Virus record (IMG/VR): IMGVR_UViG_3300027792_000013
Location: 1 to 64,000 of that record
Source of the DNA: a virus
Direction: 5' to 3' (one strand)
Length of the DNA: 64,000 nt
Position 1 is the stretch's first letter, and each line of letters starts with the position of its first letter. The notes under the pieces are model-generated. The model was not told where the DNA came from, searched no databases, and worked only from the letters and a program-made list of their open reading frames with translations. The position numbers and the translations under genes are program-made. Positions 40,277 through 63,822 of the stretch are shown here, in pieces.

Positions 40277-40284
40277 TATTTATA
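40277..40284 (-). promoter_or_regulatory. Possible T4-type late promoter (TATAAATA)
   Basis: TATAAATA on the minus strand (40284-40277), 18 bases before the 39753-40259 start, followed by GGAGG. It overlaps the stop of the epimerase gene. In an AT-rich genome the 8-base match could be chance. Confidence 0.4.
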
Positions 40285-43277: not shown

Positions 43278-44122
43278 TTTTCCTCTTTTTTTATTATATT
43301 ATTATATACTTCAGAACTTAATTTTCTCTTTCTAATATCATCAATATAATTATTGATAAATCCGTTGAATGTAAACCAACCAAAAAAATCTGTATCGTGA
43401 TGAAAACACCAATAAAGAAAATCATTATTAACATAACTAAGTCCAAAGTACTGAATAATTTTTGGATGGATTGGAGTCATCCACTGTGGTTTCATAATAA
43501 AATCATTGACAATATTTTTAGATAATTTTTTAAATCCAATATACTCTAAAATATTTTGTAACAAATCCAATTTATACTGAATAGATAAATGATTATATGT
43601 ATTAAAACAATATTGGGCAGTAAAATCGGTAAAAATGTTACTTAATTTAATATCACAAAAACTATCTATGTAATTAATTCTTTCTATGTCGGTTTTATAG
43701 ATATAATTAAGGACTTGTTCATCAAATTGTATTTCGTGTACTTTTTTAATAATTGTTTGATTGTCAAAATCCAAATTGTCATAAATAATATTTGTAATAT
43801 CTGAACCCAATCTATAGTTATATTCTCCAATTGATGACTTTCTTTGATATGGCCACAAACAATTAAATGTTGGGTATGGGTATGCAATTTTTTGCCCATT
43901 AATTTTTTGAATGTTTTCATTTAATAAAGCAGCTCGTTGATAAATCAAAAGATCACAGTTTTCCATTTCTTTATTTGATGGTACTGTATTAATGTATTTG
44001 TTTTCTGTTATAAAATATGGAACGATTTTATATTCTTTAACAAATGATTTGTGTTTTTTCAATAGATTGTAAAAATTAATTGCTAAGCAATGTCCCTCGA
44101 TTATACATATTTTTTTACTCAT
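43274..44122 (-). CDS. Putative WcbI-like polysaccharide biosynthesis protein
   Basis: The 282-residue protein has CIIEGHCLAINFYNLL at the N-terminus, DLLIYQRAAL near residue 62 and IAYPYPTFNCLWPYQ near 83. These fit the WcbI pattern (N/GHC--, D-lI-Q, P---F--yWP), a family linked to capsule acetylation. The rest is unassigned and aromatic. The chosen ATG overlaps the upstream gene by 8 bases. Moderate certainty on the family. Confidence 0.58.
   Translation of the reverse strand: MSKKICIIEGHCLAINFYNLLKKHKSFVKEYKIVPYFITENKYINTVPSNKEMENCDLLIYQRAALLNENIQKINGQKIAYPYPTFNCLWPYQRKSSIGEYNYRLGSDITNIIYDNLDFDNQTIIKKVHEIQFDEQVLNYIYKTDIERINYIDSFCDIKLSNIFTDFTAQYCFNTYNHLSIQYKLDLLQNILEYIGFKKLSKNIVNDFIMKPQWMTPIHPKIIQYFGLSYVNNDFLYWCFHHDTDFFGWFTFNGFINNYIDDIRKRKLSSEVYNNIIKKEEK
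43293..43321 (-). promoter_or_regulatory. Class I promoter (TTAAGT-N17-TATAAT)
   Basis: -35 TTAAGT (43321-43316), 17-bp spacer, -10 TATAAT (43298-43293), inside the 3' end of the WcbI-like gene. It drives the three sugar-nucleotide genes separately from the rest of the island; GAGG follows. Confidence 0.66.
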
Positions 44123-44663
44123 TTTTAAACCACCAATTTTCACCGGTCACATAAAATGGAATTTTCATATCATTAATTGCCATTTTAACACTTTCAATAC
44201 TATAATCATGCCCGGCAATAATTTTCAATTTTTTTGTTTTTTTGATAGCATTTTTAACATCTCGTATAACATCATTGAATTCATGAGATCCATCAATATA
44301 GAAAAAATCTATTGATTCATCGGGAATATAAACAATATCAAAAACTTCTAAACTGTTATAAACCACAGTAATAATATTTTTTTCTATGTCATAATTTTTT
44401 ATGTTTTGAAAAAATCGATTTTTTATTTCTAGTTCTTTTGCGGCTTTTTCTGTCGGTGGGTTACTTCCCTGAAATGTGTCAATACAAAAAACTCTAATAT
44501 TTTTTTGTTTAATTATATCAGCCACGGAACAAATTGATCGTCCCTCCCAACAACCAACTTCAATAGTTATAGAATAATTCGGTAAATTAGTATATTGTTT
44601 GCGATAAAACACAATATCATATGTATTAAACCAACCCCAAGGAAGTTCACTATTTTCGTTCAT
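44115..44663 (-). CDS. SAM-dependent methyltransferase (Methyltransf_24 type)
   Basis: The 182-residue protein reads TIEVGCWEGRSICSVAD at residue 33 (motif I), VFCIDTFQGSNPPT near 58 (motif II acidic residue) and IDFFYIDGSHEFNDVIRDV near 118, as in sugar O-methyltransferases and macrocin-like enzymes. In this island it probably methylates a glycan. It overlaps the upstream radical SAM gene by 14 bases. Confidence 0.75.
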   Translation of the reverse strand: MNENSELPWGWFNTYDIVFYRKQYTNLPNYSITIEVGCWEGRSICSVADIIKQKNIRVFCIDTFQGSNPPTEKAAKELEIKNRFFQNIKNYDIEKNIITVVYNSLEVFDIVYIPDESIDFFYIDGSHEFNDVIRDVKNAIKKTKKLKIIAGHDYSIESVKMAINDMKIPFYVTGENWWFKNE

Positions 44664-45582
44664 AATTCATACATGTTTTTTTGCAAATAGAATCATCGTT
44701 GTTTTTAATACAATTTCGCAACCTATTCAACTGCGGGCTATTATTCCAAATATCAACAAAACTATTGGTATTAATATTACCAACAACGAATCTACTCAAA
44801 AAACAACAAATCGCAACTTCACCTTCGGGAGCAATTGAAACCTCGGTCCAAGGAGAAATACAACTTGTAATTGGTTGCTTTACAATTTTTTCTGAAGTTC
44901 CCTCTGTTGGTCTCAAACTACCATAAATATCTATATTATATTTTTTAGCCAATTCATACGTCAAATTTAAAGTCTCCTTTTCTTTACTATCATATTTTAG
45001 TCCAAAACCTTCTGGATAAATATGTGATAATTCTAATATTGGTTCCTGTAATCGTACAACTTCAGCTCCGGTATTATGCGCATATTCTATGAATTTTGGC
45101 ATTTCCAAAAAATTGTAACGATTAACAATAACCGAAATTATTACATGATATGATCTTGGCTTTTTAACAAAACTTTCGTAGTTTCTAATAGTTTGTTCAA
45201 AGTTCCCTTGACCACCACTCAACATTATTTTGGTTTCCTTATCCAGTGAGTTCAGTGAAAAATTAATCCATTTAAGTGGAGAATCTCTCATAAGTTTTTG
45301 TTTTTCCACATCTAAATTTTCGCCAGTCGTAATAATACTATATTTTAACTTTCTGTCAATTAGCAACTGAATAATTTGATTAAAATTCGGATGTAAAAAA
45401 ACATCCCCATATCCACTTATATCAATATATTCTGTTTCCTCTGATTTAAAAGATCTAATAAAACTTTCTATTTTCTCAAAACTCAATAATATAGGTTTCA
45501 TATTTTTGTTATTACAAAAAATACATTTGTAACCACATGTAGTATTTGTACATAATGTTATACGAGATGGCATTTTAATCAT
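44650..45582 (-). CDS. Radical SAM/SPASM protein, stand-alone
   Basis: The 310-residue protein has CGYKCIFCNNKNM near residue 15 (CxxxCxxC), ISGYGDVFLHPNFNQII near 55, a TIM-barrel core, and a SPASM-type C-terminus: CISPWTEVSIAPEGEVAICC, then VGNINTNSFVDIWN and CKKTC. It is a paralogue of the C-terminal half of the 46789-48642 protein. SPASM enzymes often modify peptides or sugars; the substrate here is not known. GGAGGA precedes the ATG at 45582. Confidence 0.85.
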   Translation of the reverse strand: MIKMPSRITLCTNTTCGYKCIFCNNKNMKPILLSFEKIESFIRSFKSEETEYIDISGYGDVFLHPNFNQIIQLLIDRKLKYSIITTGENLDVEKQKLMRDSPLKWINFSLNSLDKETKIMLSGGQGNFEQTIRNYESFVKKPRSYHVIISVIVNRYNFLEMPKFIEYAHNTGAEVVRLQEPILELSHIYPEGFGLKYDSKEKETLNLTYELAKKYNIDIYGSLRPTEGTSEKIVKQPITSCISPWTEVSIAPEGEVAICCFLSRFVVGNINTNSFVDIWNNSPQLNRLRNCIKNNDDSICKKTCMNYERK

Positions 45583-46153
45583 AATATTCCTCCGATTTTA
45601 AAGTTGACCACATAATGAGATTTGATAAAAATCGAAATGATTTTTCTAATAGATGATCGGTTTGTAATACTGTTTCTCTTTTAAATAAACAGTCAAAATC
45701 GATCATAGTAAGTTTTGATTTATCTTCAGTGATAATAAAATTTCTTGGAGATGGATCTAAAATTACAATATTTCTATTATAAATTTCTGACAGAATTAGC
45801 ATCATTCTAGATAAAATCTCTCGTTTTTCTTCGAATTGAAACCATCCATTTTTTTCGGCATCATAAACACTAGAACCTTCTAAATACTCACTGAGTAAAT
45901 AGAATTTTTCGTTGTTCCACCAAAAATCGTAGATTTTTACAATATTTTCAATATCTTTAATTTTTGGATATATTTTTTTATATGGATTTGTATAAAGTTC
46001 ATAATTGATTTTACCGTTAATATTATCGTTTTCATCGGGGCTCATAATTTTTAAAGTGTACAATTCATAATTTTTTTCAACTAAGAAAATATTGGTTCTA
46101 TTTGTTTGTAGATTTGAATAAATATGCTTAATAATTTTATAATCCTTTACCAT
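45575..46153 (-). CDS. Small protein-kinase-like fold protein
   Basis: The 192 residues have a kinase-like layout: LYTLKIMSP (strand-3 Lys near residue 34), FYLLSEYLEGSS hinge near 85, NIVILDPSPRNFIIT near 130 (catalytic-loop D-x4-N) and LTMIDFDCLF near 148 (metal-binding D as DFD). It resembles lipopolysaccharide-kinase or RIO-like small kinases and lacks the C-lobe end. A sugar kinase role in glycan assembly or protein phosphorylation could fit. It lies between methyltransferase and radical SAM genes. Confidence 0.7.
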   Translation of the reverse strand: MVKDYKIIKHIYSNLQTNRTNIFLVEKNYELYTLKIMSPDENDNINGKINYELYTNPYKKIYPKIKDIENIVKIYDFWWNNEKFYLLSEYLEGSSVYDAEKNGWFQFEEKREILSRMMLILSEIYNRNIVILDPSPRNFIITEDKSKLTMIDFDCLFKRETVLQTDHLLEKSFRFLSNLIMWSTLKSEEYYD

Positions 46154-46788
46154 TTTCTCTCCAGTAAAAAAATCATTCTAGTTTCATTACTATGCATTCC
46201 CAAAAATACACCATAGAAAAAAGGAGTTAACCCCTCAAAGATTTTTTGGATGTTAAAGTTTTGTTTTTCTTCTGGCATATAATGATCGAACATAGTATTA
46301 CAGGAAATATCCTCCATTCCTACCGGTACCTCTAAAAACACTGATTTTGTTATTGTTGACAACTTTTCAAAAATCTTTGAATGGTTTTTATAATCTCTAT
46401 AAATATGATGATAAACACTACACATAATAACTAAATCAAATAATTCATCACTGTTATAATCAGTAAATGATTCAACTCGATATTCAATTGATTTACTGAA
46501 ATGTTCGGCAAAAATTTTGGCAGAATCGATAGAATCTTTTATGGTATCAATTCCAAGAATTCTCGTAGCGTATTTGGAAGATTCTAAACAATATAAACCA
46601 AAATTACAGCCTATATCAAATACACTACTTGGATTCAATTTTTCTAACACATGTCGTAAATGCCTGATTGTGTTACCGGCCTTTTGATCAATTTCGTAAC
46701 CACTTTCTGTAATTTTGAAATTTTGGTAAAAACTAATTCCATTTTTGTGTTTTTCGTCAATGATTTTTTGAAGTTGTTTAATTTCCAT
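46147..46788 (-). CDS. Class I SAM-dependent methyltransferase
   Basis: Motif I SVFDIGCNFGLYCLE near residue 56, ILGIDTIKDSIDSAK near 76, and DLVIMCSVYHHIYRD near 118 (post-motif). N-terminal helix region of about 50 residues (QKIIDEKHKNGISFYQ). It is similar to methyltransferases in glycan and natural-product clusters. Starts directly after the fusion-protein stop. Confidence 0.76.
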   Translation of the reverse strand: MEIKQLQKIIDEKHKNGISFYQNFKITESGYEIDQKAGNTIRHLRHVLEKLNPSSVFDIGCNFGLYCLESSKYATRILGIDTIKDSIDSAKIFAEHFSKSIEYRVESFTDYNSDELFDLVIMCSVYHHIYRDYKNHSKIFEKLSTITKSVFLEVPVGMEDISCNTMFDHYMPEEKQNFNIQKIFEGLTPFFYGVFLGMHSNETRMIFLLERKW

Positions 46789-48642
46789 TTAACCGTCCTT
46801 TCTACAATTTTTACAATATGCTATATCACCATTTTTTATAGCATTTCTAAGTTTAGTATATCTATCTCCGTTCCAAATCTCCTCGAAACTCTGTTTAAAA
46901 ATATTTCCCATAATCATTTTGGACCAACAGCAAGGAGTAACCACACCCTTAGAATTAATAAAAAATTTAGTATAAACCCAGTCACAATTTTTTATTTGTT
47001 CAGATAAGTTTTGAACTCTTTGAGTTGATCCAACTTGGGTATCAAAGTTAAAAATGTTAAATTGAGCTCCGATTTTTTCCGCATATGCTTTCCATTCAAT
47101 AATTTTAGTACGATTTTCCAGAGTATCTTTAATAATTAAATCCGGTGTATATGTTAGAGTTGGGGTCAATCCTAAACATGAAATATTTTTGTTGTAGTGT
47201 TTTGCCAATCTAATAAAACTAGGAACCTCATCAAAATTGTAGGCATTCATAACAAATGAAAAATACAAAGTCTTTTTGTATTGTTTGACGAATTCATTAA
47301 TGTTATATAAAACAACTTCTAATCCATCAACCCCCATTAACTGCTTATAAGTATGTTTGTTCAATGAATTCAATGAAACTACAACTTCATCAACAGTAGA
47401 ATTATAAATTAAATTACGATTTTTTTCATTCAGCAAATAACCATTTGTTACAAATCGAATAGGAACATTTTTATCTGATAATTTTTTAATAATATTTTCA
47501 AAATCCGGATGAGCTAAAATTTCACCATAGCCGGTAATATCAACCATTCTGGCATATTCTAAAAGGGAATCTATCCCTTTTATATCATTTAATGTTATAG
47601 TTCTTCTTTCATTTGGTTGCATTTTAGGATTATGACAAAACACACATTTGTAAATACATTTCGTGGTTAATTCCAAAAATAAATCTATACTTTTTGTTTT
47701 CATAACATGCTCCATAATTTTACCCAAAATCGTATTTTTGTAATCTAAAAAATTATTATAATCTACGTGATTTAAAAATACTTGAGAATCCGGAAATCCA
47801 GCATACCAATGAATCCCAATTGTTTTGCTAGTAAAATTTAGCTGAGATCTAATTAAAAAAAGTTCAGGAATCTGTTTATGTGTATGATATGGGTAAACAG
47901 TCATCATATCAATATTACCAACAACGCAATTTTGAAATCTCTTTTGTATTTCAGCCGGGGAACTAAACTCTTTGTTTAAAAGTTCAGATCCATGAGTTTG
48001 ATAACTATTAAAATTTATTTTGGTTCTAATAGCTTTTTGGTGGATGTATGTATAGTATTGATTTTTTGGTGAACTTAACATAAATCCGATGCTATGATAT
48101 GTATCTTTACCATTATCATTTATACTAACTATAGTATCAATATTTGCGTTTTCCGGCGAATTTAAATGCAACTCATTCATTGATCGAAAATATAAGATAT
48201 CCATATCTGACCACAACCCACCTACATTTGATAGGATGTCCCAACGTAAATAATCAGATTTTATTACCTCGGGTATTTCCCTGGGATCTTCTATATTTGG
48301 AATGTTAACATCTAATTCAAAAAATTTCAGTGGGAGTTTTCTCAATAAAAACATATAGTCATTGTTTAAATTTCTTTCAAACTTATGCTCAAATGTTGTC
48401 CATGTTTTTTTCTCACTTAATGTCAAAGGTGAATAAAATCTAATTTCCCAATCCGGATTGTATTTCATAAACGAAAACACTGTTAAATATTTTAAAAAAG
48501 GCAGAGTTTTAGCTCCCCAATAAAAATGAACTATTTTAGGAATTTTTTTCAAATACCACTCATATTTAGTTATTTTTTGGTATTCTGAAAGTCTCCATAA
48601 ATTCATATTTTGTTCGTTACGAATGGAATTCAAATCAAGCAT
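46789..48642 (-). CDS. Fusion protein: GT32-like glycosyltransferase + radical SAM/SPASM
   Basis: Residues 1-300: IPKIVHFYWGAKTLPFLKYL near 33 and YLRWDILSNVGGLWSDMDILYF near 132, with the DxD motif of GT32/TcdB-type glycosyltransferases. Residues about 318-617: LTTKCIYKCVFCHNPKM (CxxxCxxC), DITGYGEILAHPDFENI, then SKGVVTPCCWSKMIMGNIF and CKNCRKDG as SPASM. Both halves are complete and the join is in frame with no gap. It should transfer a sugar and carry out radical chemistry, perhaps on the same product. Coupled to the 745-residue glycosyltransferase by an 8-base overlap. Confidence 0.85.
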   Translation of the reverse strand: MLDLNSIRNEQNMNLWRLSEYQKITKYEWYLKKIPKIVHFYWGAKTLPFLKYLTVFSFMKYNPDWEIRFYSPLTLSEKKTWTTFEHKFERNLNNDYMFLLRKLPLKFFELDVNIPNIEDPREIPEVIKSDYLRWDILSNVGGLWSDMDILYFRSMNELHLNSPENANIDTIVSINDNGKDTYHSIGFMLSSPKNQYYTYIHQKAIRTKINFNSYQTHGSELLNKEFSSPAEIQKRFQNCVVGNIDMMTVYPYHTHKQIPELFLIRSQLNFTSKTIGIHWYAGFPDSQVFLNHVDYNNFLDYKNTILGKIMEHVMKTKSIDLFLELTTKCIYKCVFCHNPKMQPNERRTITLNDIKGIDSLLEYARMVDITGYGEILAHPDFENIIKKLSDKNVPIRFVTNGYLLNEKNRNLIYNSTVDEVVVSLNSLNKHTYKQLMGVDGLEVVLYNINEFVKQYKKTLYFSFVMNAYNFDEVPSFIRLAKHYNKNISCLGLTPTLTYTPDLIIKDTLENRTKIIEWKAYAEKIGAQFNIFNFDTQVGSTQRVQNLSEQIKNCDWVYTKFFINSKGVVTPCCWSKMIMGNIFKQSFEEIWNGDRYTKLRNAIKNGDIAYCKNCRKDG

Positions 48643-50872
48643 TTTTAGCGTCTCTCATTTGAATCAATTTAGATGTCATTTCGTGAACATATTTCATTCC
48701 TTCTCTTTGTAATTTAGCCGATAAATTAAATGGATGTCTACGATGCCATCCACAAACTTTGGGTAAATATGCGAATCTAACACCATTTAAAACCATTCTA
48801 CAAAACATATCATGGTCTTCACAGGGAGTCAGTTGCCAATCACCAACATTTATTCTAGCATGTTTTCGCCACAACCAAATTACCCCGATATTATATCGTT
48901 CAAAAAATTTATGTGGATTCCATTCCATGTTCACTTCTTCATTATAATTTTTTCTTCGTTTTTCAATTAACCCAGTTTCATCCATTACACCAATTTCACA
49001 GCAAGTGTAAACAAAATCAATTTCGGGATGTGTATCAAGAAACATTACCATTTCTCTAAGTGCTTGAGTATAGTACTTATTATCACTGGCTATCCAGGTT
49101 TCGTATTCACCTTTACATACACTAAAACCAACATTAAGGGCACTTCCTGTACCACCGTTTTCTTTATGGATAATTTTTATTCTTGAATCCCTGATGTTGT
49201 CAATAATATTTTTTGTCTCATCCGTTGAACCATCATTTACAATGATCAATTCAAAATCTCTAAATGATTGATCTAAAACACTTCTGATTGATTCTTTGAT
49301 ATATTTAGATTGATTGAAAGTTGGCATTACAATTGAAACTTTTGGTTCTCCTTTTGTTGTATTTGTTGGCAAATGCATAATCATTCCCTTTCGTGTCATT
49401 CTTGAAGTTTGATAATGTTCAATTACAGATTCGTTAATACCTTTCATCAAATCAAAAATTTTTGTATATTCTGGTGGCAGTTTATAAACTTTAATATCAG
49501 GAAAAGCATTGACGACCTCTTGTAGATTTGTTTGTTCATTGCATTCGCTGGTATTAAGTTTTTCATTGTTTTTTTCAATCCATCTGTCAAATACAAATCT
49601 TCCTCTGTCGGTGTTTTTTACAAAAAGTGTTCCACTCAATAACTCAGTTCCATTTCTATAATGAGCGGCTAGATCACAATCAGTCAATTTAGTAAATAAG
49701 ATCGGATAAGTTTGAACTACGGCATCAGCATCAATCCAAACAATATCTTTTCCTCTATGTTTGTCCATCATTTCTCTAATAAAAGCTGCTTTGTAATATG
49801 AATTTATTCTCCAGTTCTTCCTAACTGTTGAGGGGTCATTAAGAGGTGCATAGTTTCCACTTAAAATCTTTTTGATGTCATAATCAATCCCAAATCTATT
49901 AAGCGATTCTATTAAGTTTTTAACGTTTTCTTCGTAAATTGTAGCTTCGGTAAAATAGGAAACCACTATAAATTTATTGGGGATATTAAATTCAAGTTTG
50001 TTATAATCAATAAAATCAAAACAACGAAGACGGGATTTTTCATTTGTATTAAATATTTTAAATCCCTCTTTTTTATATGTATTAGCAACTATCTCAAATT
50101 GTTTTACGTAATCCAATAAAACATTTTCATTTAGATTTGCTAGAGGATATCCGGCATGGTGATGAGTTTTTTCTGGTTCAACATAAAAGTCATAGCCTAA
50201 CAAATAGATTGGATTAGCGCCTAAAGCTAGAGCCAAAGACAATCCAGAAAATCCACTACAATTACCGCCAAAAATTCCTTTAGAAAGATCTAGACTCAAA
50301 CCATGGGGCCCTAAGTATGGAATTGTATATACTTCAGGACCGAACGGATAGTCATGAGTATCTAACCACGTTTTAAGTCCTTTATACTGATTGTATAATG
50401 CCTGATTTTCCGGTCCTAGTTTTGAAGCCTGAATCCATCTATAAAATCTTGAGTCACAACTATGCATAATTGGAGCAAACATGCAGGTTTCAAAACTACG
50501 ATTTAAAGCAATTATTTTTTCTGATTTTAATTTTGATATTTCTAATTGACTAACACTTGTACCACCACCAATAATAAAACATCTTTGATTTTTCCAAGCT
50601 CCACTTGTCATTATGTCACTTAAAAGTTTCTTTTTATTTGGTTGTGGTACCGGCGAAGATGATTTTGGTTTATTTACATTTTGTCTATGAGCATCTAAAT
50701 GTTTTTGCGAAACTATTGGTTGTTGTCCTGGTCTAGCTAGCATATTTTTGTATCGTAAATCTAGCCCTTCTGGTAAATTTGTGTTAATACCTACCTTAAT
50801 TTTATAAACCTTTTTTTCCGACGTTACTTCTAAATTCCATGGAGTTCCCAATAAATTAATATAGTCGGCCAT
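48635..50872 (-). CDS. Three-domain protein: DUF115/MptE-like + GT-A + GT2 glycosyltransferase
   Basis: Residues 1-90 are unassigned with a Pro/Ser linker. Residues 95-290 match DUF115/MptE-like sugar-chain enzymes (CFIIGGGTSVSQLE, IALNRSFETC, YLLGYDFYVEPE). Residues 305-500 look like a nucleotide-sugar transferase with DIVWIDADAVVQTYP (DxD, near 380). Residues 508-745 are a GT2 enzyme: VSIVMPTFNQSKYIKESIRSVL near 512 shown as VSIVMPTFNQS, LIIVNDGSTDET and WRRKHP-type end. It is the first gene of the glycan island and probably builds the glycan core. Confidence 0.82.
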   Translation of the reverse strand: MADYINLLGTPWNLEVTSEKKVYKIKVGINTNLPEGLDLRYKNMLARPGQQPIVSQKHLDAHRQNVNKPKSSSPVPQPNKKKLLSDIMTSGAWKNQRCFIIGGGTSVSQLEISKLKSEKIIALNRSFETCMFAPIMHSCDSRFYRWIQASKLGPENQALYNQYKGLKTWLDTHDYPFGPEVYTIPYLGPHGLSLDLSKGIFGGNCSGFSGLSLALALGANPIYLLGYDFYVEPEKTHHHAGYPLANLNENVLLDYVKQFEIVANTYKKEGFKIFNTNEKSRLRCFDFIDYNKLEFNIPNKFIVVSYFTEATIYEENVKNLIESLNRFGIDYDIKKILSGNYAPLNDPSTVRKNWRINSYYKAAFIREMMDKHRGKDIVWIDADAVVQTYPILFTKLTDCDLAAHYRNGTELLSGTLFVKNTDRGRFVFDRWIEKNNEKLNTSECNEQTNLQEVVNAFPDIKVYKLPPEYTKIFDLMKGINESVIEHYQTSRMTRKGMIMHLPTNTTKGEPKVSIVMPTFNQSKYIKESIRSVLDQSFRDFELIIVNDGSTDETKNIIDNIRDSRIKIIHKENGGTGSALNVGFSVCKGEYETWIASDNKYYTQALREMVMFLDTHPEIDFVYTCCEIGVMDETGLIEKRRKNYNEEVNMEWNPHKFFERYNIGVIWLWRKHARINVGDWQLTPCEDHDMFCRMVLNGVRFAYLPKVCGWHRRHPFNLSAKLQREGMKYVHEMTSKLIQMRDAKNA

Positions 50873-55474: not shown

Positions 55475-58045
55475 TTAAAACATAGTTTTCAATGAAATTT
55501 TTTCGGGATTAAAAAATTTGTCATGAATTGTCCAACCACATACTTTTCCTAAGTTATCTAAAGGATGTAAAAACGTTTTTTCGAATTGAGTTTCATAATC
55601 TATAGATTGGTCTAAACCCAACTCGGGAGGTAGAATAGTTAAAAACGCTATTACATTTTCCCCAATTTTGTTTGGAGTTTTAAGATAAATAAATTTAATT
55701 TTGGTTTTTTCCTGAATTAATCTATATTTCCCCAATAGGTTTAATTTTTTAATCCAGTAATTATATAATAGAGATCCTCTGACATGAATGGGGGTTGCTT
55801 TGGCATAAATATTTACATCGTCTCCATATTTTTTTAATCCTTGAACAGATCTTGGAAATGCGATTTCATCTGGTTTCATTTTATCATATTCTTCCCAAAA
55901 CTTCTTTATGCCAGACATTATTTTTTCCTCTGATTTCAGAAAAATATCATTCACAATTTCCTTTAATTTTGTTCTGATGACCTGCGGGGTGGAAGATCTG
56001 ACAATTTCAATTCCGGTAACTTTTAATGTTGGGGGATCACAAATTATATCTTCGTCAATATATTTCTGAATAATATATTTCTTTTTGGCTACAAAAAGAC
56101 CTTTTCCAACAACCTCTTGTTTCATAACAAGAGATTTTTTATAGACATTCAATATCGAATAAATCTCTTCAATTGCTTTTTCAATATATTTCGACACTTT
56201 TTTGTCACCAAATTCTTTTACAAATTTAGCGATTTCAGTATCTGACAATCCCGGTGATAATTTATTTGTCAATTTTGAACAAGAAATATATTCGGAATCT
56301 GTATCACAATAAACAACATCGATATGATCCTTTAAATTAGCTTTCAAATATTCCTCAATAAACCGAACTACATATTGACCTGTACATGTAATAGCCGAAG
56401 CAATTCTAATATCAAAATATCTAAATTTTTCATTTGCAAATGCTCCGTATCCGCTATTTAATAGAATTTTCAAAGCCTGTTGTTTCAAATCCAGACTTTT
56501 ATATAGAGATGTTTTACTTTTTGCGGATTTCATTTTCTTTTTGGTTTCTACTCGATCATTGTAAATGGTCTCCATAATATCACCAAAAATAGACGATTGA
56601 TCTTTTCTATAAAATTGTAAATTTGCTGTCATTGTTAAATTCTTTTCTTGTAAAATTGAAGTATCAACTTTTCTGAAAATCAAATTGTCCAATATAGAAT
56701 TATCGTCTTTTTTTGTTTCATCATAAAAACAAGCTAAAGAATCTATTCCAGGATTGTTAGGAAAAATTTTTGAAATCAAATCTTTTCTTGTATCCTCATC
56801 TGTTATTAGAGTCTGAGGAGAGATATTGCAATCAATAATAACATTTGGATACTCAGAATTTACATCGTATGAAATTACCCAATCATGAAACCCAATTTGT
56901 GGTTCTCTGACATATCCACCGGGATATTCTTCCTTTCTTGAATCTTTTTTAAAAGGCGGAACTATAAGATTTCGTTTTTTCTGCTCATTGTAAACAATCA
57001 CGTCCCAGACCTTTACGGCTGAAAAAATATCACAAAAAAGAACTTTGGCAGTATAAGCAATTGTTGTAGCTAAATTCAATAACTGTAATTTTTCTTCCAA
57101 AAGATAAACTAATTCAACATCATAGATATTATATTCGACAAACTTTTGTTTGTCATTTAAATAGAATTCATCTAAAGAATCTTCGTCAAACTTAACTTTT
57201 TCTTTGTTAAGTTCGACTTGTGAAATATGCGATAATGAATATGATTCCCTTGTTGTTGGTACATACTTTTTGTATAGATCCAAATAGTCTAAAATAGGAA
57301 TATGAAAATCCCAATGAGACAATCGACTTCCATTCACAAAAGATTCAATGGGATTGACATGCCCAATAGGACTCAAATCGTTTAAAACATTTGATCCAAT
57401 TACTTTGCAAATCCGGTTGGTTAAATATGGGATATCAAAATATTGGACATTCCACCCGGTAATAATATCCGGAGACAAAGATTTTATGACGTGAATAAAT
57501 AACTCCAAAAGTTCCCTTTCAGTTGTGACTTGTTTGAATTGAATTTTTTCTTTATCTATGTCTAATTGACATTTTGAAGTTTCAAAGGGGCAAGTACTTA
57601 AAACAAAAAATGATTTCGTTATACTATCTTTTATAGTAATCGAAGTAACCGGATATAATGCATCCTGTGGTTCAGCAAAACCTTGACTATTTGAAAAAAC
57701 TTCGATATCAATATAAACAGTTTTGATAAAATCTAGATTCCAAAATACTGATTGTTCTTCTCCCCATCTTGAATTAATAAATTGATATACTGGCGAAATT
57801 TCCCCATATAATGGAACATCTAGTTGTTTTTGATCATTTTTAAAATTATGATATTCTTTGATCGATAAACTATGTTTTTTCAAAAATTTATTATCAGTCC
57901 CTATATATTCAGTGGGTATTTGTGCCAAAGTATAGATTTCCGGATAAAAAATAACATCTCGTTTAAATTTCTTACCGGTTTCATTGTAACCAATACAACA
58001 TAAACTGTTACCGTTTGAAATCACATTTGTGTAAAATTCTTTCAT
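55475..58045 (-). CDS. 43: DNA polymerase, family B, T4 gp43-like
   Basis: The 856 residues (T4: 898) include the 3'-5' exonuclease (TVYIDIEVFSNSQG near residue 110, DIITGWNVQYFDIPYL near 195, EYNIYDVELVYLLEE near 305) and the polymerase domain: YDVNSEYPNVIIDCNISP (motif A near 390), KILLNSGYGAFANEKF (motif B near 525) and VVYCDTDSEYISCS (motif C near 580). All catalytic acids are present. It is coupled by ATGA to the DpdA-like gene upstream, so polymerase and base-modifier are made together. Confidence 0.93.
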   Translation of the reverse strand: MKEFYTNVISNGNSLCCIGYNETGKKFKRDVIFYPEIYTLAQIPTEYIGTDNKFLKKHSLSIKEYHNFKNDQKQLDVPLYGEISPVYQFINSRWGEEQSVFWNLDFIKTVYIDIEVFSNSQGFAEPQDALYPVTSITIKDSITKSFFVLSTCPFETSKCQLDIDKEKIQFKQVTTERELLELFIHVIKSLSPDIITGWNVQYFDIPYLTNRICKVIGSNVLNDLSPIGHVNPIESFVNGSRLSHWDFHIPILDYLDLYKKYVPTTRESYSLSHISQVELNKEKVKFDEDSLDEFYLNDKQKFVEYNIYDVELVYLLEEKLQLLNLATTIAYTAKVLFCDIFSAVKVWDVIVYNEQKKRNLIVPPFKKDSRKEEYPGGYVREPQIGFHDWVISYDVNSEYPNVIIDCNISPQTLITDEDTRKDLISKIFPNNPGIDSLACFYDETKKDDNSILDNLIFRKVDTSILQEKNLTMTANLQFYRKDQSSIFGDIMETIYNDRVETKKKMKSAKSKTSLYKSLDLKQQALKILLNSGYGAFANEKFRYFDIRIASAITCTGQYVVRFIEEYLKANLKDHIDVVYCDTDSEYISCSKLTNKLSPGLSDTEIAKFVKEFGDKKVSKYIEKAIEEIYSILNVYKKSLVMKQEVVGKGLFVAKKKYIIQKYIDEDIICDPPTLKVTGIEIVRSSTPQVIRTKLKEIVNDIFLKSEEKIMSGIKKFWEEYDKMKPDEIAFPRSVQGLKKYGDDVNIYAKATPIHVRGSLLYNYWIKKLNLLGKYRLIQEKTKIKFIYLKTPNKIGENVIAFLTILPPELGLDQSIDYETQFEKTFLHPLDNLGKVCGWTIHDKFFNPEKISLKTMF

Positions 58046-59253
58046 TCAAATATTTCCTTTAGATCATGTTTAATTGTATCTTCTTCAAATTTGTTAAAAA
58101 CCATTCCACTTTTAATTAACTCGTCAAGTTTTTTTCCTTTTGGTAAATCAAATATTTTGTCAATTAATGTAAAAATAAAAATATCATTTCGAGGAAAAAT
58201 GTCTCTTATAATTTCTTTTGAATTCAAGAAAAGTATATTTTCTAACTCAGTTTTATCTTTTATAAAGTGATACAAATTATGCAAGGATAAAAAACTATAA
58301 AAACGTGTCGTAAATGCCTGATTTTTTTCGTTAAATTCTTGATATATATGTCGCCAAGTTAAACCTTCACAAACTGGACAATCACAAGGTAGTGGAATAT
58401 CTAAATTAAGATGGTCAATTGAATCTATCTGTTTTGTTATAGTTAATTTGCTCGATTTAAAAATAGAAGTTTTGTAAGACCCGAATGCCGATGATAATAT
58501 AGGTGATGATGAATCGTATGAAATTTTGCATTTATACCCTAATTGATTTAGTTTATGTTGAAAATAAATCAACATGCGCATAATTTGATATGATGTTGCT
58601 CCAAAAATATGAAAAATTTTTCCTTTGCTGTTAAATCTATCAAATTCCCCGGATTCTAAAAACATAATAAGAGCATACAAAGTTAAAAATATATTTCGTG
58701 ATACAGATCCAATCGCCCACCCACCACTAAAATTAAAATCCTTGACTTTCTGATACCACGTAATCAATTGATCGATGCTTCTTCCTTGTAAAACATTCAT
58801 AAATTTTGTTTTGTTACTTTGATGAGTTTCAAACCATTGAAAATTAGAAAATGACATTTCTAAACATTCTTCAAATGTTTTTCTTCTGTTTCCTTTACTA
58901 GATGATATAAATGGTGGTATATCCAAATTTGGAGAGTAATTGGTATTTTCTTCTAACCAATCAAATATTTTTTCTCTAATCTCATCAGAATATTCTAAGT
59001 AGTCCGTAGTTATTTGATATCCACCAGAATCTCCCATCACTAATGTTTTAGTTAAGTCAATTTTTAATATTTCCTTAACCAAATTTGGTTTTTTATAATT
59101 ATGTCCGGCCGAAAACATAATTTTGTCATAATGAAAAATAGAATTTTCTTTATTGAAAAATCGCATAGACTTTTCTTTTATTAATTTATCAGTAATCATT
59201 TCATCATATAAACATCCTGTCGATATTGCTGGAATATATAAAGTTCTATTCAT
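58042..59253 (-). CDS. dpdA: DNA 7-deazaguanine transglycosylase, DpdA-like (TGT superfamily)
   Basis: The 403-residue protein has a TGT-type barrel: IMFSAGHNYKKP, VMGDSGGYQITTDYL (residues 72-86), NLDIPPF near 110, MNVLQGRSIDQL near 150, GGWAIGSVSRNIF near 180, and a zinc site LPCDCPVCEGLTWRH near 290. These fit phage DpdA, which exchanges guanine in DNA for a 7-deazaguanine base. Bacterial and archaeal TGTs act on tRNA instead; phage context, the lack of a PUA domain and linkage with polymerase and FolE favour DpdA. Class I promoter upstream. Confidence 0.82.
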   Translation of the reverse strand: MNRTLYIPAISTGCLYDEMITDKLIKEKSMRFFNKENSIFHYDKIMFSAGHNYKKPNLVKEILKIDLTKTLVMGDSGGYQITTDYLEYSDEIREKIFDWLEENTNYSPNLDIPPFISSSKGNRRKTFEECLEMSFSNFQWFETHQSNKTKFMNVLQGRSIDQLITWYQKVKDFNFSGGWAIGSVSRNIFLTLYALIMFLESGEFDRFNSKGKIFHIFGATSYQIMRMLIYFQHKLNQLGYKCKISYDSSSPILSSAFGSYKTSIFKSSKLTITKQIDSIDHLNLDIPLPCDCPVCEGLTWRHIYQEFNEKNQAFTTRFYSFLSLHNLYHFIKDKTELENILFLNSKEIIRDIFPRNDIFIFTLIDKIFDLPKGKKLDELIKSGMVFNKFEEDTIKHDLKEIFE

Positions 59254-59276
59254 TTAATGACCTACCTTATTTAATT

Positions 59277-59305
59277 ATTATACCAAAAAACTTAAAAAAA
59301 CTTTC
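59277..59305 (-). promoter_or_regulatory. Class I promoter (GAAAGT-N17-TATAAT)
   Basis: -35 GAAAGT (59305-59300), 17-bp spacer, -10 TATAAT (59282-59277), driving dpdA and polymerase. The leader contains AAGG before ATG. Confidence 0.6.
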
Positions 59306-59331
59306 TTTTTTTAGTAGAAAAATATATGTTT

Positions 59332-60339
59332 TCATATATACTCCTTGATTTTTTCAAACCCAACAAATTTATTAATCAATATTTGTCTTTGTATTTTTAA
59401 TAATTCATCCAATTTATTTTTATTCATTGAGTTAATTTGTTTGACAAAATGCAAAAACGTTTTAATTATTTCATTGTCGGATAAGAGATTCTCATATTTA
59501 AATTCTGATATATACATTTCTTCGTAAGACAATCGATTTGGAATAAATGGAACCACATCTAAAAATACTCCCTCAACAGCACTTATACCAAATGTTTCTT
59601 GAAGATTGGCACTAAATAAAAATTTACTACTCGTTAGTAATTTATAATAATCTTTTTTTGTTTTGCATTCTTCTAAACTAACAACAAAAGACATGTCTTT
59701 TATTTCATTTTTCATTCTCCTAAATAAGTCAATTCTTTTTTCCACTGATAGTCTATGTGGAAAAATTACCTGATTTTTCTTTAAATCACGATCCATTTTA
59801 TACTTATTTAAATAATCTATTTTGTATGGAAATCCAACTACTTTTATTTTGTCTTTATATGTATTCCCAAAATTATTTATGATCATTTTTTTATGAAAAT
59901 CAGTTGTAACAAAAGATATGTCGGAACAATCTAATAAACTTTTTTCAAATCCATTGAAATACTTATTTGCACCAACTAATCCTAATAAATCATATGGATC
60001 ATAACTTCCAGCATGCCAATAAGAATAGATTTTAATATTAATTCCACTTAAAAGTGACATATATTTTACTGCTATAATCCCATAATGCCAGGCATCATAA
60101 AACAAAAATTTATCATTTGGTTTAATTAATTTTTTATTGAATAAATCTGCCATTTTACTAATTTGTTCTGATTTCCACTTATTAGTATTAAAAATATCTA
60201 AAAAATTTTTGTTATTACTTATACCAGATCTAGTTTTTCCGTCTATTTCAATCGAGTCCGGAAATTCTTCTTTAAACCATACTTTCCACTGTTTTGTATA
60301 TCTTGTCTCTAATGGTTCCAATGTAACTAAATATAGCAT
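59332..60339 (-). CDS. GT-B glycosyltransferase, GT4-like
   Basis: The 335-residue protein has DKFLFYDAWHYGIIAV in the N-terminal domain, then KVVGFPYKIDYL, VIFPHRLSVEKRIDLFRRM and NLQETFGISAVEGVFLDV (the E-x7-E type donor site) in the C-terminal domain, as in GT4 enzymes. GGAGG lies at 5 bases from the chosen ATG. It sits between dpdA and a second glycosyltransferase, next to a deacetylase gene. Confidence 0.78.
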   Translation of the reverse strand: MLYLVTLEPLETRYTKQWKVWFKEEFPDSIEIDGKTRSGISNNKNFLDIFNTNKWKSEQISKMADLFNKKLIKPNDKFLFYDAWHYGIIAVKYMSLLSGINIKIYSYWHAGSYDPYDLLGLVGANKYFNGFEKSLLDCSDISFVTTDFHKKMIINNFGNTYKDKIKVVGFPYKIDYLNKYKMDRDLKKNQVIFPHRLSVEKRIDLFRRMKNEIKDMSFVVSLEECKTKKDYYKLLTSSKFLFSANLQETFGISAVEGVFLDVVPFIPNRLSYEEMYISEFKYENLLSDNEIIKTFLHFVKQINSMNKNKLDELLKIQRQILINKFVGFEKIKEYI

Positions 60340-60359
60340 ATTAACCTCCATAATCTATT

Positions 60360-61091
60360 TTAATATATATATTCAATATCTTTAATAGACCAACCATCTT
60401 TTTTTAAAGAAATTCCATAATTATTTACTTTTTTACTCCAAGCCAATTCAGATACCCACTTTTTTTCTGAATAACTATATCTAAGATGGTAAATACTATC
60501 ATTACAAAATATATAGTGAGGTTTTATTTTTTTATGTTTGAAAATTAAATCAGAAAAAACAAACCAATCTATTGTTTTTTTAGTATTTAATAATTTTTTT
60601 AAAATAACAGTATCTTCTATAAAAGTATCATATTTTTGTAAATAACAACATCCCAACATTGAAAGATAAATATCATCATTTACAAACATCGGTGCTTTTC
60701 TGATTCCTATATCAACTCTATTTTCTATAAATGACATATAGACTATGTTTTTATTTTCCACAAATTTTAAAATGTTTTGAATAACTTTTTCATTAAAAAT
60801 AAAATCATCGTCAAAAATAAAGTAGTTTTTACGATTTAAATTATTCATATATTTAAGCATGTAATAAGTAGTTTTATTTATATTGCCACCACCTAATCCT
60901 GAAAATATATTCCACTTTTTTATCATCAATACTTCGAGTAACTTTTTCTGAAACCCAGTTAAGTCATTTTCCCCATCTTTGATTACTAACAAATTACCAA
61001 CAGTATTAAATGTTGATAGTACTGTTAAAAAAGCAGTAAAACATTCATACCCAAGAGTTCTTACCACAATTGTAAAATTTTTTTCTTTCAT
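60360..61091 (-). CDS. GT-A fold glycosyltransferase
   Basis: The 243-residue protein begins FTIVVRTLGYECFTAFL, with NLLVIKDGENDLTGF near residue 33, a Gly-rich region, and RKNYFIFDDDFIFNEKV near 88, a DDD metal site. The end contains WFVFSDLIFKHKKI and a WSKKVNNYGISLKKDGW segment. It fits a GT2-like family, though the exact group cannot be set. Acceptor unknown. Confidence 0.7.
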   Translation of the reverse strand: MKEKNFTIVVRTLGYECFTAFLTVLSTFNTVGNLLVIKDGENDLTGFQKKLLEVLMIKKWNIFSGLGGGNINKTTYYMLKYMNNLNRKNYFIFDDDFIFNEKVIQNILKFVENKNIVYMSFIENRVDIGIRKAPMFVNDDIYLSMLGCCYLQKYDTFIEDTVILKKLLNTKKTIDWFVFSDLIFKHKKIKPHYIFCNDSIYHLRYSYSEKKWVSELAWSKKVNNYGISLKKDGWSIKDIEYIY

Positions 61092-61097
61092 ATTTAT

Positions 61098-61727
61098 TTA
61101 CATAAAAAGATTAAACACTTTATCATTTTTAAACCATAATCTTTCACAAAAAAGATTGTTTTTATGTAAATAAAAATACAAGCTATTTATTAAAGAAATA
61201 TCAATCTGTGATTTATATAACATAACCAATCTTATTTTATCAAAAATATCTATATTAATAAATGCATGATTAAAATTATTATTTTTTAAAAAATCATTGG
61301 TTTTAAATTGTACATTATCGGCATATGGTAAATCCTCATAAAAAATTAATTTATCATCGGGTAATATATTTTTAAAAGTTTCAAAGCATATAACATGATC
61401 TATATGTTCTTCAATTGATAATGGCAAGAAAACGAAATCATACCAACATAAATTTATTTTAACATCTATGTTTATTTTTAATTTCGAACGTAACTTAGAA
61501 TCTAAAAAATTTAAGTGAATATAATTTGCATTTACATGTTTACAGAAACTTTTGTCTTCTTGTAATCTTGTATTATATGGATTTTCCGATTTTATATTTT
61601 CATTTAATAGATAATTACTTTTATTAAAAACCGTTAAAATAGTTTTTTTACCTATTATTCTTTGTATAGATCCACCAATAGAAAAAGCAATATCATCGAA
61701 ATGTGGTTGAACAAATAATATCTTCAT
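61098..61727 (-). CDS. PIG-L/LmbE-family deacetylase
   Basis: The 209-residue protein opens ILFVQPHFDDIAFSIGG (the PH-DD zinc motif, residues 7-12, with Ile where Glu is common) and has LPLSIEEHIDHVICFE near 106 (the H-x2-H motif). The family removes acetyl groups from GlcNAc units in GPI, mycothiol, bacillithiol and antibiotic sugars. Lying next to a GT4-like enzyme, it suggests a two-step GlcNAc transfer and deacetylation. Coupled by ATGA to the gene upstream. Confidence 0.8.
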   Translation of the reverse strand: MKILFVQPHFDDIAFSIGGSIQRIIGKKTILTVFNKSNYLLNENIKSENPYNTRLQEDKSFCKHVNANYIHLNFLDSKLRSKLKINIDVKINLCWYDFVFLPLSIEEHIDHVICFETFKNILPDDKLIFYEDLPYADNVQFKTNDFLKNNNFNHAFINIDIFDKIRLVMLYKSQIDISLINSLYFYLHKNNLFCERLWFKNDKVFNLFM

Positions 61728-62167
61728 TTTTTGTAATCTACCATATATTTTTCCCAGTCATTATAACTAAAAGAATCTGAAATAAATATACCATCAATTG
61801 ATTCTATTTTTAAAGATACTTGATTTATATTACTCAAAGTCAGATTATTAGTTTTTAAAGTAAATATTTTATGAATGTAGTGATTTGATAATATATAAGC
61901 CGGTATCTTAAAAATTTCATCTATTTCATATTCAGCAACAATGATATATTTATTTACATCTATTGTTGATAAAAATTCAAATAATTCTTTATTGTCTATT
62001 TTTGATTGATTACATGCTCCAAAATAAATCCTTTTAATATCCACATCTTTTTCTAGTATATTTTTAATTTCATTTAGAGAAAAAGATCCTTTGACAAATA
62101 AAGTTTTGATTTTATCTTTTTCTATCCCTTCAACTTCTACCGATACAAAATAAGGTTTATCTAACAT
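61724..62167 (-). CDS. Hypothetical protein in the second modification island (147 aa)
   Basis: ATG at 62167 overlaps the radical SAM gene by 11 bases; two earlier ATGs overlap more. The protein alternates strands and helices (LFVKGSFSLNEIKNIL, YIIVAEYEIDEIF, SLKIESIDGIFISDSFSYND), like a leucine-rich or solenoid-type fold. It is found only in this setting in the window. Function unknown. Confidence 0.58.
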   Translation of the reverse strand: MLDKPYFVSVEVEGIEKDKIKTLFVKGSFSLNEIKNILEKDVDIKRIYFGACNQSKIDNKELFEFLSTIDVNKYIIVAEYEIDEIFKIPAYILSNHYIHKIFTLKTNNLTLSNINQVSLKIESIDGIFISDSFSYNDWEKYMVDYKK

Positions 62168-62873
62168 TTTTTTTCTCACTTTCACCATGATCATTGCTGT
62201 ATCCTAAACAAGTTTCACATTTTTTAATAATTCTATTTTCAATATTCGTTTCCCAAATATTCCCCAAAACACAATCACTACTATCATCAAAACACTCACA
62301 ACATCTTACTATTTTACCATTAGATAGTACTACCACCTCATTATTTACAAGAAAAGAACAATTTTTGAAATCACTCCTTTTCTCTGTATTATTTAATTGA
62401 CCCAGGTCCCGCAATCGTTTGGTAAAACATTTGAATCCATTATTTAAAAGATCTAGTATAATGTCTTTATATTTTTCTTCGTCAAAAAATAATATATTTA
62501 TTTTATCTTTGTCATTTTTTATTTCACTCAAATTTTTAATTGAGTTATAATTGTGAAAGGAAATGTATAATTTACTTAACCCCATTTTTATTAAAGACGA
62601 AAAATTACTATTAGTTAATAGAATTCCATTCGTATTTAATTCAACTTTTATTTTTTTATTATTTAATACTTTTATTGTATATAATAATATATCTAATTCC
62701 AAAAGACTTTCTCCAAAATGATGTAATCGTACTTTTTTCGATGTGATAATATTACATATATGGTCTATCACATCTTTATCAATTGTTTTAATAGGTCTTG
62801 TCATCGCACTTCTTGGGCAATAATAACAACTTAAGTTACATTTATTTGTTATTTCAATTTGATATATATTCAT
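62157..62873 (-). CDS. Radical SAM protein with SPASM-like C-terminus
   Basis: The 238-residue protein opens MNIYQIEITNKCNLSCYYCPRSA (here CNLSCYYC gives CxxxCxxC), with LHHFGESLLELD near residue 50, ELNTNGILL near 78 and a C-terminal set (NCSFLVNNEVVVLSNGKIVRCCECF; VLGNIWE; CETC) of SPASM type. It is too unlike QueE, which has a longer loop in its Cys motif, for that role to be assumed. It ends coupled to the next gene. Confidence 0.8.
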   Translation of the reverse strand: MNIYQIEITNKCNLSCYYCPRSAMTRPIKTIDKDVIDHICNIITSKKVRLHHFGESLLELDILLYTIKVLNNKKIKVELNTNGILLTNSNFSSLIKMGLSKLYISFHNYNSIKNLSEIKNDKDKINILFFDEEKYKDIILDLLNNGFKCFTKRLRDLGQLNNTEKRSDFKNCSFLVNNEVVVLSNGKIVRCCECFDDSSDCVLGNIWETNIENRIIKKCETCLGYSNDHGESEKKNVR

Positions 62874-63206
62874 CTAATAATACTCTTTTAGTGATCCATT
62901 TTCATTATCTTCTGATATTTCAATTTTAATTTTTCTTTTAGGAAATTTGGTGGAAATTTTTTTATAAAAAAAATCAGATATTGCCTCACAAGATTTGTTA
63001 TTAAGATTCTTATTTTTTATTAAAGATTCTACGAAACTTTTGAATAAAAAGAACTCTATATCACGATCATTGTGGAAAACTTCTATCCATATTTTTACAT
63101 AAAAAATATGACGGTGGATATTTTTTAAAAATTTTACTTCTGGTGGGGCATCTGTATATCGATGAAACCCAACAAAATTAGTAGTAATCCATATAAAACT
63201 ATTCAT
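62874..63206 (-). CDS. QueD-like (6-carboxytetrahydropterin synthase-fold) protein
   Basis: The 110 residues follow a phage/bacterial QueD-like pattern: WITTNFVGFHRYTDAPPEVKFL, here shortened to FVGFHRY-DAPPEV, NIHRHIFYVKIWIEVFH near residue 32 (H-x-H), DIEFFLFKSFVES, SCEAISDFFYKK near 78 and IEISEDNENG at the end. QueD makes 6-carboxytetrahydropterin on the preQ0 route. The zinc His set differs from standard QueD, so it could be a diverged form. It follows folE by one base. Confidence 0.72.
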   Translation of the reverse strand: MNSFIWITTNFVGFHRYTDAPPEVKFLKNIHRHIFYVKIWIEVFHNDRDIEFFLFKSFVESLIKNKNLNNKSCEAISDFFYKKISTKFPKRKIKIEISEDNENGSLKEYY

Positions 63207-63207
63207 T

Positions 63208-63822
63208 CTATTTCTTAATGTAATGTAAAAATTCTTCTTTTGTACTAATATCAAGAAAACAGCCTTTTAATGAAGTAGTTATCATCCAGGCATTCGGTTC
63301 TTGAATTCCTCTGATCTGCATGCAACCATGTTGAGCTTTAATATAAACTCCACATCCTACCGGTTGAAGTTTTTCATCAATGAACTCCGATATTTGTTCC
63401 GTTAATTCTTCTTGAATTTGTGGTCTTTTGGTAAACCAATCAACAATTCGAGCCAGCTTAGAAATGCCAGTAATTAGCTTATTGGGAATGTATCCTATAT
63501 AAGCCTCACCAACAAATGGGACAAAATGATGAGAACATAATGAATTTACGCGAATTGGACCCAAAACAATCATAGAGTTAATCTGTTTGGTATTGACGAA
63601 AAATGTTATCTTTGGAGACGGTTCATAACAGCCTTTTAAAAGTTCCCTAACATACATTTTGGCAATTCTTTTAGGGGTTTCGTTTAAATTTTGATCTAAA
63701 TTCATATCAAATCCCAAGATCTTTAAAATTGATATAAAATGAGTTTGTACTTCGTCTTCCATGATTTTCAATTCAGATTCCGTTTTTATCTTATTGTCAT
63801 TCGCAATTCCTAGTCCTGGCAT
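63208..63822 (-). CDS. folE: GTP cyclohydrolase I, FolE
   Basis: The 204-residue protein has the FolE core: LNETPKRIAKMYVRELL near residue 45, VNSLCSHHFVPFVGEAYIGYIP near 92 shown as SLCSHHFVPF-GEA-IGYIP with the zinc Cys and His, LARIVDWFTKRPQIQEELT, and AQHGCMQIRGI near 165 (second Cys). It turns GTP into dihydroneopterin triphosphate, the first step for 7-deazaguanine synthesis and for folates. Class I promoter and AAGGAG are upstream. Confidence 0.9.
   Translation of the reverse strand: MPGLGIANDNKIKTESELKIMEDEVQTHFISILKILGFDMNLDQNLNETPKRIAKMYVRELLKGCYEPSPKITFFVNTKQINSMIVLGPIRVNSLCSHHFVPFVGEAYIGYIPNKLITGISKLARIVDWFTKRPQIQEELTEQISEFIDEKLQPVGCGVYIKAQHGCMQIRGIQEPNAWMITTSLKGCFLDISTKEEFLHYIKK

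Follow-up and report, generated by a model that had tools for sequence, protein, structure and literature searches.

The 7-deazaguanine bases known from DNA carry small groups only, and Hutinet 2019, which covers the phage DpdA/DpdA2 pathway, makes no mention of glycosylation (PMC6884629). That pathway, with its precursor genes for FolE, QueD and QueE and its TGT-fold DpdA, resembles a minus-strand gene cluster in the first 64,000 bases (hereafter the window) of the 115,928-base IMG/VR virus record IMGVR_UViG_3300027792_000013, a record that may be incomplete; the cluster differs in having no QueC and in adding a GT4-like glycosyltransferase (GT), a small paralogue of the QueD fold and a conserved partner protein. 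By its defining genes the system is of the DpdA type, minus QueC and plus a conserved glycosyltransferase. Its best explanation, which we regard as fairly probable, is a system for sugar-hypermodified 7-deazaguanine DNA in which the sugar is then remodelled. Glycosylated deazaguanine in DNA would, if true, be a new class of DNA hypermodification, a purine counterpart to the glucosylated cytosine of T4.

Like the T4 alpha- and beta-glucosyltransferases, which act on hydroxymethylcytosine, the GT adjoins a base-modification pathway in a phage with a likely role in DNA protection; unlike in T4, the base would be a deazaguanine put in by base exchange, and the enzyme is GT4-like. In the bacillithiol (BshA/BshB) and mycothiol (MshA/MshB) pathways, a GT4 enzyme transfers N-acetylglucosamine (GlcNAc) and a PIG-L protein then frees the amine. 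The window shares this pairing of GT and PIG-L, and its GT fold lies near both BshA and MshA, but the acceptors of those enzymes are malate or inositol phosphate, and the window PIG-L matches BshB1 weakly (0.021). Butirosin and neomycin biosynthesis uses a GT (BtrM), a PIG-L deacetylase (BtrD) and, as alternatives, the radical SAM enzyme BtrN or the zinc dehydrogenase NeoA. The same three enzyme types occur here, BtrN is the best match of the window radical SAM protein, and relatives carry a zinc dehydrogenase where the window has the radical SAM gene; unlike those pathways, the locus shows no aminocyclitol genes, and the likeness is at the level of enzyme type.

The tubercidin pathway (TubA-G; PMC6112128) also leads from FolE, QueD and QueE to 7-carboxy-7-deazaguanine (CDG) without QueC, and some relatives of the window cluster share its phosphoribosyltransferase (PRTase) and IMPDH-domain protein, but its product is a small nucleoside antibiotic and it has no step in which a DpdA-type enzyme swaps a base into DNA. 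Bacterial dpd islands (dpdA-K) likewise place deazaguanine in DNA by means of DpdA; there is no glycosyltransferase among the dpd genes listed in PMC11888242, and the alphaproteobacterial GT-dpdA loci reported below differ in architecture. A review of jumbo phages mentions the deazaguanine system of PA5oct and draws no link from it to a GT (PMC7824862), and our literature search, whose coverage was incomplete so that prior notice is possible, returned no glycosylated deazaguanine in DNA.

A glycosyltransferase linked to dpdA

The AlphaFold model of the GT4-like protein has a GT-B fold, with 6tvp (5e-8), BshA (4e-7) and MshA (6e-7) as best Foldseek hits and GlgM and NeuC among the top matches; PDB sequence searches with the GT profile gave nothing useful. 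The phosphate-binding pair R200/K205 and E260 of the catalytic region are invariant across 49 sequences, and an E-x7-E motif (E252 and E260) is present in the window protein, L001 and L002. GT sequences assembled before the GT-centred scan formed 19 clusters at 70% identity and 8 at 50%. The enzyme is predicted to glycosylate the deazaguanine base.

An earlier note on this DNA had tied the sugar enzymes to the deazaguanine pathway by the gene order of one genome; the link now has the stronger backing of conserved linkage across many lineages. IMG/VR contains at least 458 relatives of the GT and at least 599 of the small QueD-fold protein. Counts of IMG/VR loci refer to the best 80 per scan, ranked by similarity and including near-duplicates, and are not independent. 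Every GT-centred locus with at least 5 kb upstream had dpdA (61/61), while the small gene was found in 76/80 and the partner family in 63/80; loci centred on the small gene contained the GT in 65/80 cases and dpdA in 62/80. Among bacterial genomes and metagenome-assembled genomes, dpdA stood beside the GT in 23/26 loci; the exceptions were two contigs shorter than 5 kb and L144 (QueE-radical SAM-GT-small). Distances among the GTs track those among the DpdA proteins (Spearman 0.57, 131 loci, 0/500 permutations), with a contribution from shared virus phylogeny. Co-occurrence of the GT and dpdA exceeds chance.

The nearest IMG/VR relatives are arranged folE-small-(cassette)-GT-dpdA (L001) and queD-queE-folE-small-radical SAM-GT-dpdA (L002). 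Unrelated phages in culture that have the GT include Pseudomonas phage Paride (dpdA-GT-small-...-PRTase-QueE), Acidovorax phage ACP17 (queD-folE-...-dpdA-GT-small-queE), Xanthomonas phage X1 (folE-...-GT-transglycosylase-small-queE), phage BUCT-ZZ01 (queE-...-queD-folE-GT4b-divergent dpdA-small-GT), Sinorhizobium phage Phosso (small-GT-...-folE-...-queE, with dpdA located elsewhere) and PA5oct, where it lies in the deazaguanine cluster. A four-gene core of dpdA, the partner, the QueD-fold gene and the GT is conserved and abundant in IMG/VR, and the fact that many marine and jumbo viruses unrelated to one another carry the GT along with dpdA points to widespread DNA decoration. The presence of the GT in culturable phages, including Paride, a phage of Pseudomonas aeruginosa PAO1, makes it open to direct testing; such decoration would offer a hypothesis of what hundreds of viral proteins now lacking annotation do, and might explain the lack of QueC in such phages.

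The window DpdA diverges from its TGT homologues (TIGR00432 3e-5; Pfam TGT 0.0038, under the cut-off) but has D75 of GDSGG, D247 of DSS and the zinc site CxCxxC...H (C290/C292/C295/H325) invariant across three loci, and its relatives are present in deazaguanine phages. An IMG/VR scan with a single DpdA query found no relatives; alignment queries and the GT query succeeded. In L019, L021 and L039, a divergent transglycosylase (HADSGGLQ motif; 416-437 aa), missed by the main DpdA profile, substitutes for the usual DpdA beside the GT.

Alphaproteobacterial GT-dpdA pairs occur in Magnetospirillum (L136-L139, L143) and in L123, L125, L130, L131, L133, L135, L140 and L142. The neighbours of the pair in Magnetospirillum L136 are a MASE1 histidine kinase, a response regulator, a CoiA-like nuclease, QueD and an integrase, and this locus is possibly a bacterial DNA-modification island.

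Gene order and precursor supply

Eight close-set genes (Table 1) are transcribed in the order folE, small protein, radical SAM, partner, PIG-L, orphan, GT and dpdA, followed by DNA polymerase B. From 63822 to 58042 they lie on one strand and overlap or are separated by a few bases, with the exception of 78 bases ahead of dpdA, and therefore look like one operon. The genes are real and the coordinates first assigned to them are correct. Beyond the window edge, the same record encodes a protein at 63882-64490, queE at 64747-65490 and queD at 65492-66001, the latter two identified from translation and matched to relatives. Guanine-plus-cytosine (GC) content is 20-27% in dpdA and the cassette (58042-63206) against 31% (standard deviation 2.4) in 17 other long genes, which suggests that these genes were acquired.

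Table 1 Genes of the folE-dpdA cluster, in order of transcription.
Feature	Position	Strand	Evidence
folE, GTP cyclohydrolase I, first deazaguanine-precursor step	63208..63822	-	Pfam GTP_cyclohydroI 9e-54; phrog_2197 5e-60
Small QueD-fold paralogue, not QueD	62874..63206	-	phrog_17812 1e-19; QueD profile probability 84%, 42 columns
Radical SAM, BtrN-like twitch (half-SPASM) domain	62157..62873	-	Pfam Radical_SAM 1e-11; BtrN 5e-10
Conserved core (partner) protein, ~175 aa family	61724..62194	-	Family in 49 loci; 63/80 GT-centred loci
PIG-L/LmbE-type zinc de-N-acetylase, HxDD and HxDH intact	61098..61727	-	Pfam PIG-L 4e-9; aligns with 8bgn
Orphan, possible GT-A glycosyltransferase (unproven)	60360..61091	-	DDD motif only
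GT-B fold, GT4-like glycosyltransferase	59332..60351	-	AlphaFold2/Foldseek GT-B; R200, K205, E260 invariant, 49 sequences
dpdA, DNA guanine transglycosylase (guanine to deazaguanine)	58042..59253	-	TGT-family similarity; catalytic and zinc residues kept

The 126-aa product previously called QueD proved not to be QueD. It belongs to phrog_17812 and lacks the catalytic Cys; the QueD alignment has an invariant C31, for which 11 small proteins have no equivalent Cys, so that this gene was rejected as queD, and the true queD is the one beyond the window. The small-protein family retains invariant H15, H31, H33 and, close to the C-terminus, E99, as in the QueD/PTPS fold, and has relatives in 26 annotated phage records, with folE close by in every neighbourhood read. 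The gene is a marker of QueC-less deazaguanine clusters, and its product perhaps acts on CDG; it was considered as a candidate DpdL, the protein reported to be a CDG decarboxylase (Cui et al. 2023), and a search by that name gave nothing relevant. A second type of cluster has the small gene without the GT or a recognised DpdA (L040, L047, L054, L056, L057, L074, L076, L081, L086, L098), and there conserved genes of about 280, 123, 177, 282 and 223 aa come next. Cellulophaga phage phiST likewise has the small gene, and a GT was not found in it.

No QueC was found in this record or in L001, L002, Paride, ACP17, Phosso or BUCT-ZZ01; the QueC match in phage X1 was sub-threshold, and 0/28 small-gene records had one over the cut-off. 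As this virus and almost all of its relatives lack QueC, the precursor is probably CDG and not preQ0, unless preQ0 comes from the host. The exception is Xanthomonas phage PhiXhv-12, a distant GT relative, in which a 'GlmS' (L020 7624-9147, annotated as glucosamine-fructose-6-phosphate aminotransferase) is a glutamine amidotransferase-QueC (Gat-QueC) fusion (QueC 2e-49).

The partner protein, earlier listed merely as unknown, is present as described but is more than that, being a component of a family conserved in 49 deazaguanine loci, where it usually has dpdA on one side and the small QueD-fold gene on the other. The window copy is a divergent member (20-27% identity) and had no match in the annotated-phage collection. 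A relative modelled by AlphaFold2 with high confidence (predicted local distance difference test (pLDDT) 90) gave only middling ties in Foldseek and VIA-align (STAS domains, QueE; Z 6-7).

PRTase genes recur in deazaguanine clusters, in 36/80 small-gene-centred and 55/80 GT-centred loci (L011-L014, L016, L021, L039-L118, L149-L226); the enzyme may recycle the guanine that DpdA sets free, or build a CDG nucleotide as TubE does.

Sugar-tailoring genes

The PIG-L assignment is borne out by Pfam (37.5 bits against a cut-off of 28.2), and the metal/base motifs HFDD and HIDH align with HPDD and HPDH of the diacetylchitobiose deacetylase 8bgn; a search of the phage collection found no relatives. In PhiXhv-12, Gat-QueC, PIG-L, GT and Gfo/Idh genes adjoin one another, which ties PIG-L independently to a deazaguanine gene. 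The earlier suggestion of a sugar that is attached and then deacetylated to a free amine thus keeps one intact PIG-L here and the PhiXhv-12 adjacency on its side, but the two PIG-L proteins give no BLASTP alignment; with this one enzyme and this one parallel behind it, the free-amine step is plausible.

The radical SAM call likewise holds (Pfam over the cut-off), the accessory domain being a BtrN-like twitch. BtrN is the best PDB match, over residues 3-212, and also ranks first for the L002 protein, via its twitch domain. C12, C16 and C19 (CX3CX2C) together with C172, C191/C192, C219 and C222 are invariant in four deazaguanine-linked sequences, of which that of L039 is 47% identical to the window protein; an IMG/VR scan with a single radical SAM query found no relatives. 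The protein is predicted to be a dehydrogenase that acts on a hydroxyl group of a sugar or aminosugar. By contrast with these two genes, the GT-A call for the orphan at 60360-61091 was not confirmed, as it has a DDD motif alone, and searches of Pfam, PHROGs, NCBIfam, PDB, phages and IMG/VR returned no match.

Cassettes of relatives vary in content, with Gfo/Idh and zinc dehydrogenase genes near the core (nine loci, and more in the GT-centred sample), a second GT4 (L001, BUCT-ZZ01, L039, L080, L091, L117), and NAD epimerase, DegT aminotransferase, sulfotransferase-like, methyltransferase, IMPDH-domain and other radical SAM genes; L039 combines a short-chain dehydrogenase/reductase (SDR), an FAD oxidoreductase and a BtrN-like radical SAM. 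No examined locus has a BtrN-like radical SAM together with the Gfo/Idh-zinc dehydrogenase pair, a pattern to be read with the fact that only four loci carry the former. Judged by enzyme family, the variable cassette contains sugar-tailoring enzymes and is recurrently of sugar type.

Proposed pathway and alternatives

We propose that FolE, QueD and QueE would produce CDG, which without QueC would not be converted to preQ0, and that the small QueD-fold protein would process CDG or pass it on. DpdA would swap guanine in phage DNA for that base, and the GT4-like enzyme would add a sugar from a nucleotide sugar to the 7-substituted base in DNA, as the T4 glucosyltransferases do on hydroxymethylcytosine. 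The donor would most simply be UDP-GlcNAc or UDP-glucose of the host, because the CapE-type gene of the virus is not common to most GT carriers. PIG-L could then remove an N-acetyl group to leave a free amine, the BtrN-like enzyme could oxidise one hydroxyl of the sugar, and a second sugar might be attached by the orphan. The likely purpose would be to guard DNA against host restriction or another DNA-targeting defence. A more specific version is possible but doubtful, namely an aminosugar-bearing 7-deazaguanine for which the GT4 adds a sugar with an N-acetyl group, PIG-L uncovers the amine and oxidation is the task of the radical SAM enzyme (in other viruses, of Gfo/Idh plus zinc dehydrogenase), with variants common in marine T4-like viruses and some alphaproteobacterial islands.

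Several observations weigh against sugar-hypermodified deazaguanine. The proposal is weakest at the acceptor group: the CDG carboxylate is the obvious handle, and decarboxylation of CDG by the small protein would leave none that is obvious. The GT model is of moderate confidence (pLDDT 63), the window GT could be placed in none of the Pfam, NCBIfam or PHROG families, and linkage does not prove a substrate. PIG-L was present in 1/28 records of relatives, outside the cluster, and the cassette genes are poorer in GC (20-25% against 31%), so that part of the cassette may be recent cargo.

This last point leads to the alternative that survives best, although we think it rather unlikely: only the conserved GT, with the conserved partner, would belong to the pathway, and PIG-L, the orphan and the radical SAM gene would be recent and unrelated cargo. 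These three have the lowest GC of the region (20-24%), PIG-L and the orphan were without relatives in the searches made, and PIG-L is seldom found in the records of relatives. However, all three sit within the tight folE-dpdA operon, radical SAM genes are also contained in the GT-carrying clusters of L002, L039 and L144, and in PhiXhv-12 the GT and Gat-QueC adjoin a PIG-L gene.

It is unlikely that the GT, while still working in the deazaguanine pathway, takes CDG as free base or as ribotide for its substrate and not DNA, in the manner of the 7-deazapurine nucleoside antibiotics, with the PRTase building the CDG nucleotide. The frequency of PRTase genes given above and an IMPDH/GMPR-domain neighbour in 7 loci are in line with this, and in a QueC-less pathway the phosphoribosyltransferase TubE is specific for CDG and the reductase TubD has an IMPDH/GMPR domain (PMC6112128). 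However, no gene accompanies the GT more constantly than dpdA, which encodes a DNA base-exchange enzyme; the cluster of the window itself showed no PRTase, and salvage of DpdA-released guanine explains the PRTase more simply.

We consider it very unlikely that the sugar enzymes act on host surface or virion glycans and lie near dpdA by accident: the same virus does have a second, larger glycan cluster (40280-50872) and surface-glycan genes are frequent in large phages (PMC7824862), but GT homologues are consistently linked to dpdA in many lineages of viruses and bacteria, and the CapE-type gene of the second cluster is missing from most GT-carrying records. Least probable is a GT-B protein that has lost sugar transfer and assists DpdA in a structural or DNA-binding role, for although the protein is very divergent and the window copy matches no GT family, its phosphate-binding R/K pair and E260 do not vary and sugar-tailoring genes recur beside it.

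Second glycan cluster

The minus-strand genes at 40280-50872 look like a route to a UDP-N-acetyl-L-aminosugar. They encode a WecB-type UDP-GlcNAc 2-epimerase, an RmlD-like reductase, a CapE/PseB-like 4,6-dehydratase (best PDB match CapE, 7e-61) and WcbI. The CapE/RmlD/WecB set was considered as supplier of the GT donor and is unsupported in that role, CapE-type genes being missing in 10/14 GT-carrying records. The cluster further contains two methyltransferases, a kinase-like protein, a 745-aa GT2 and two radical SAM/SPASM proteins, one of which is fused to a sugar-binding GT domain.

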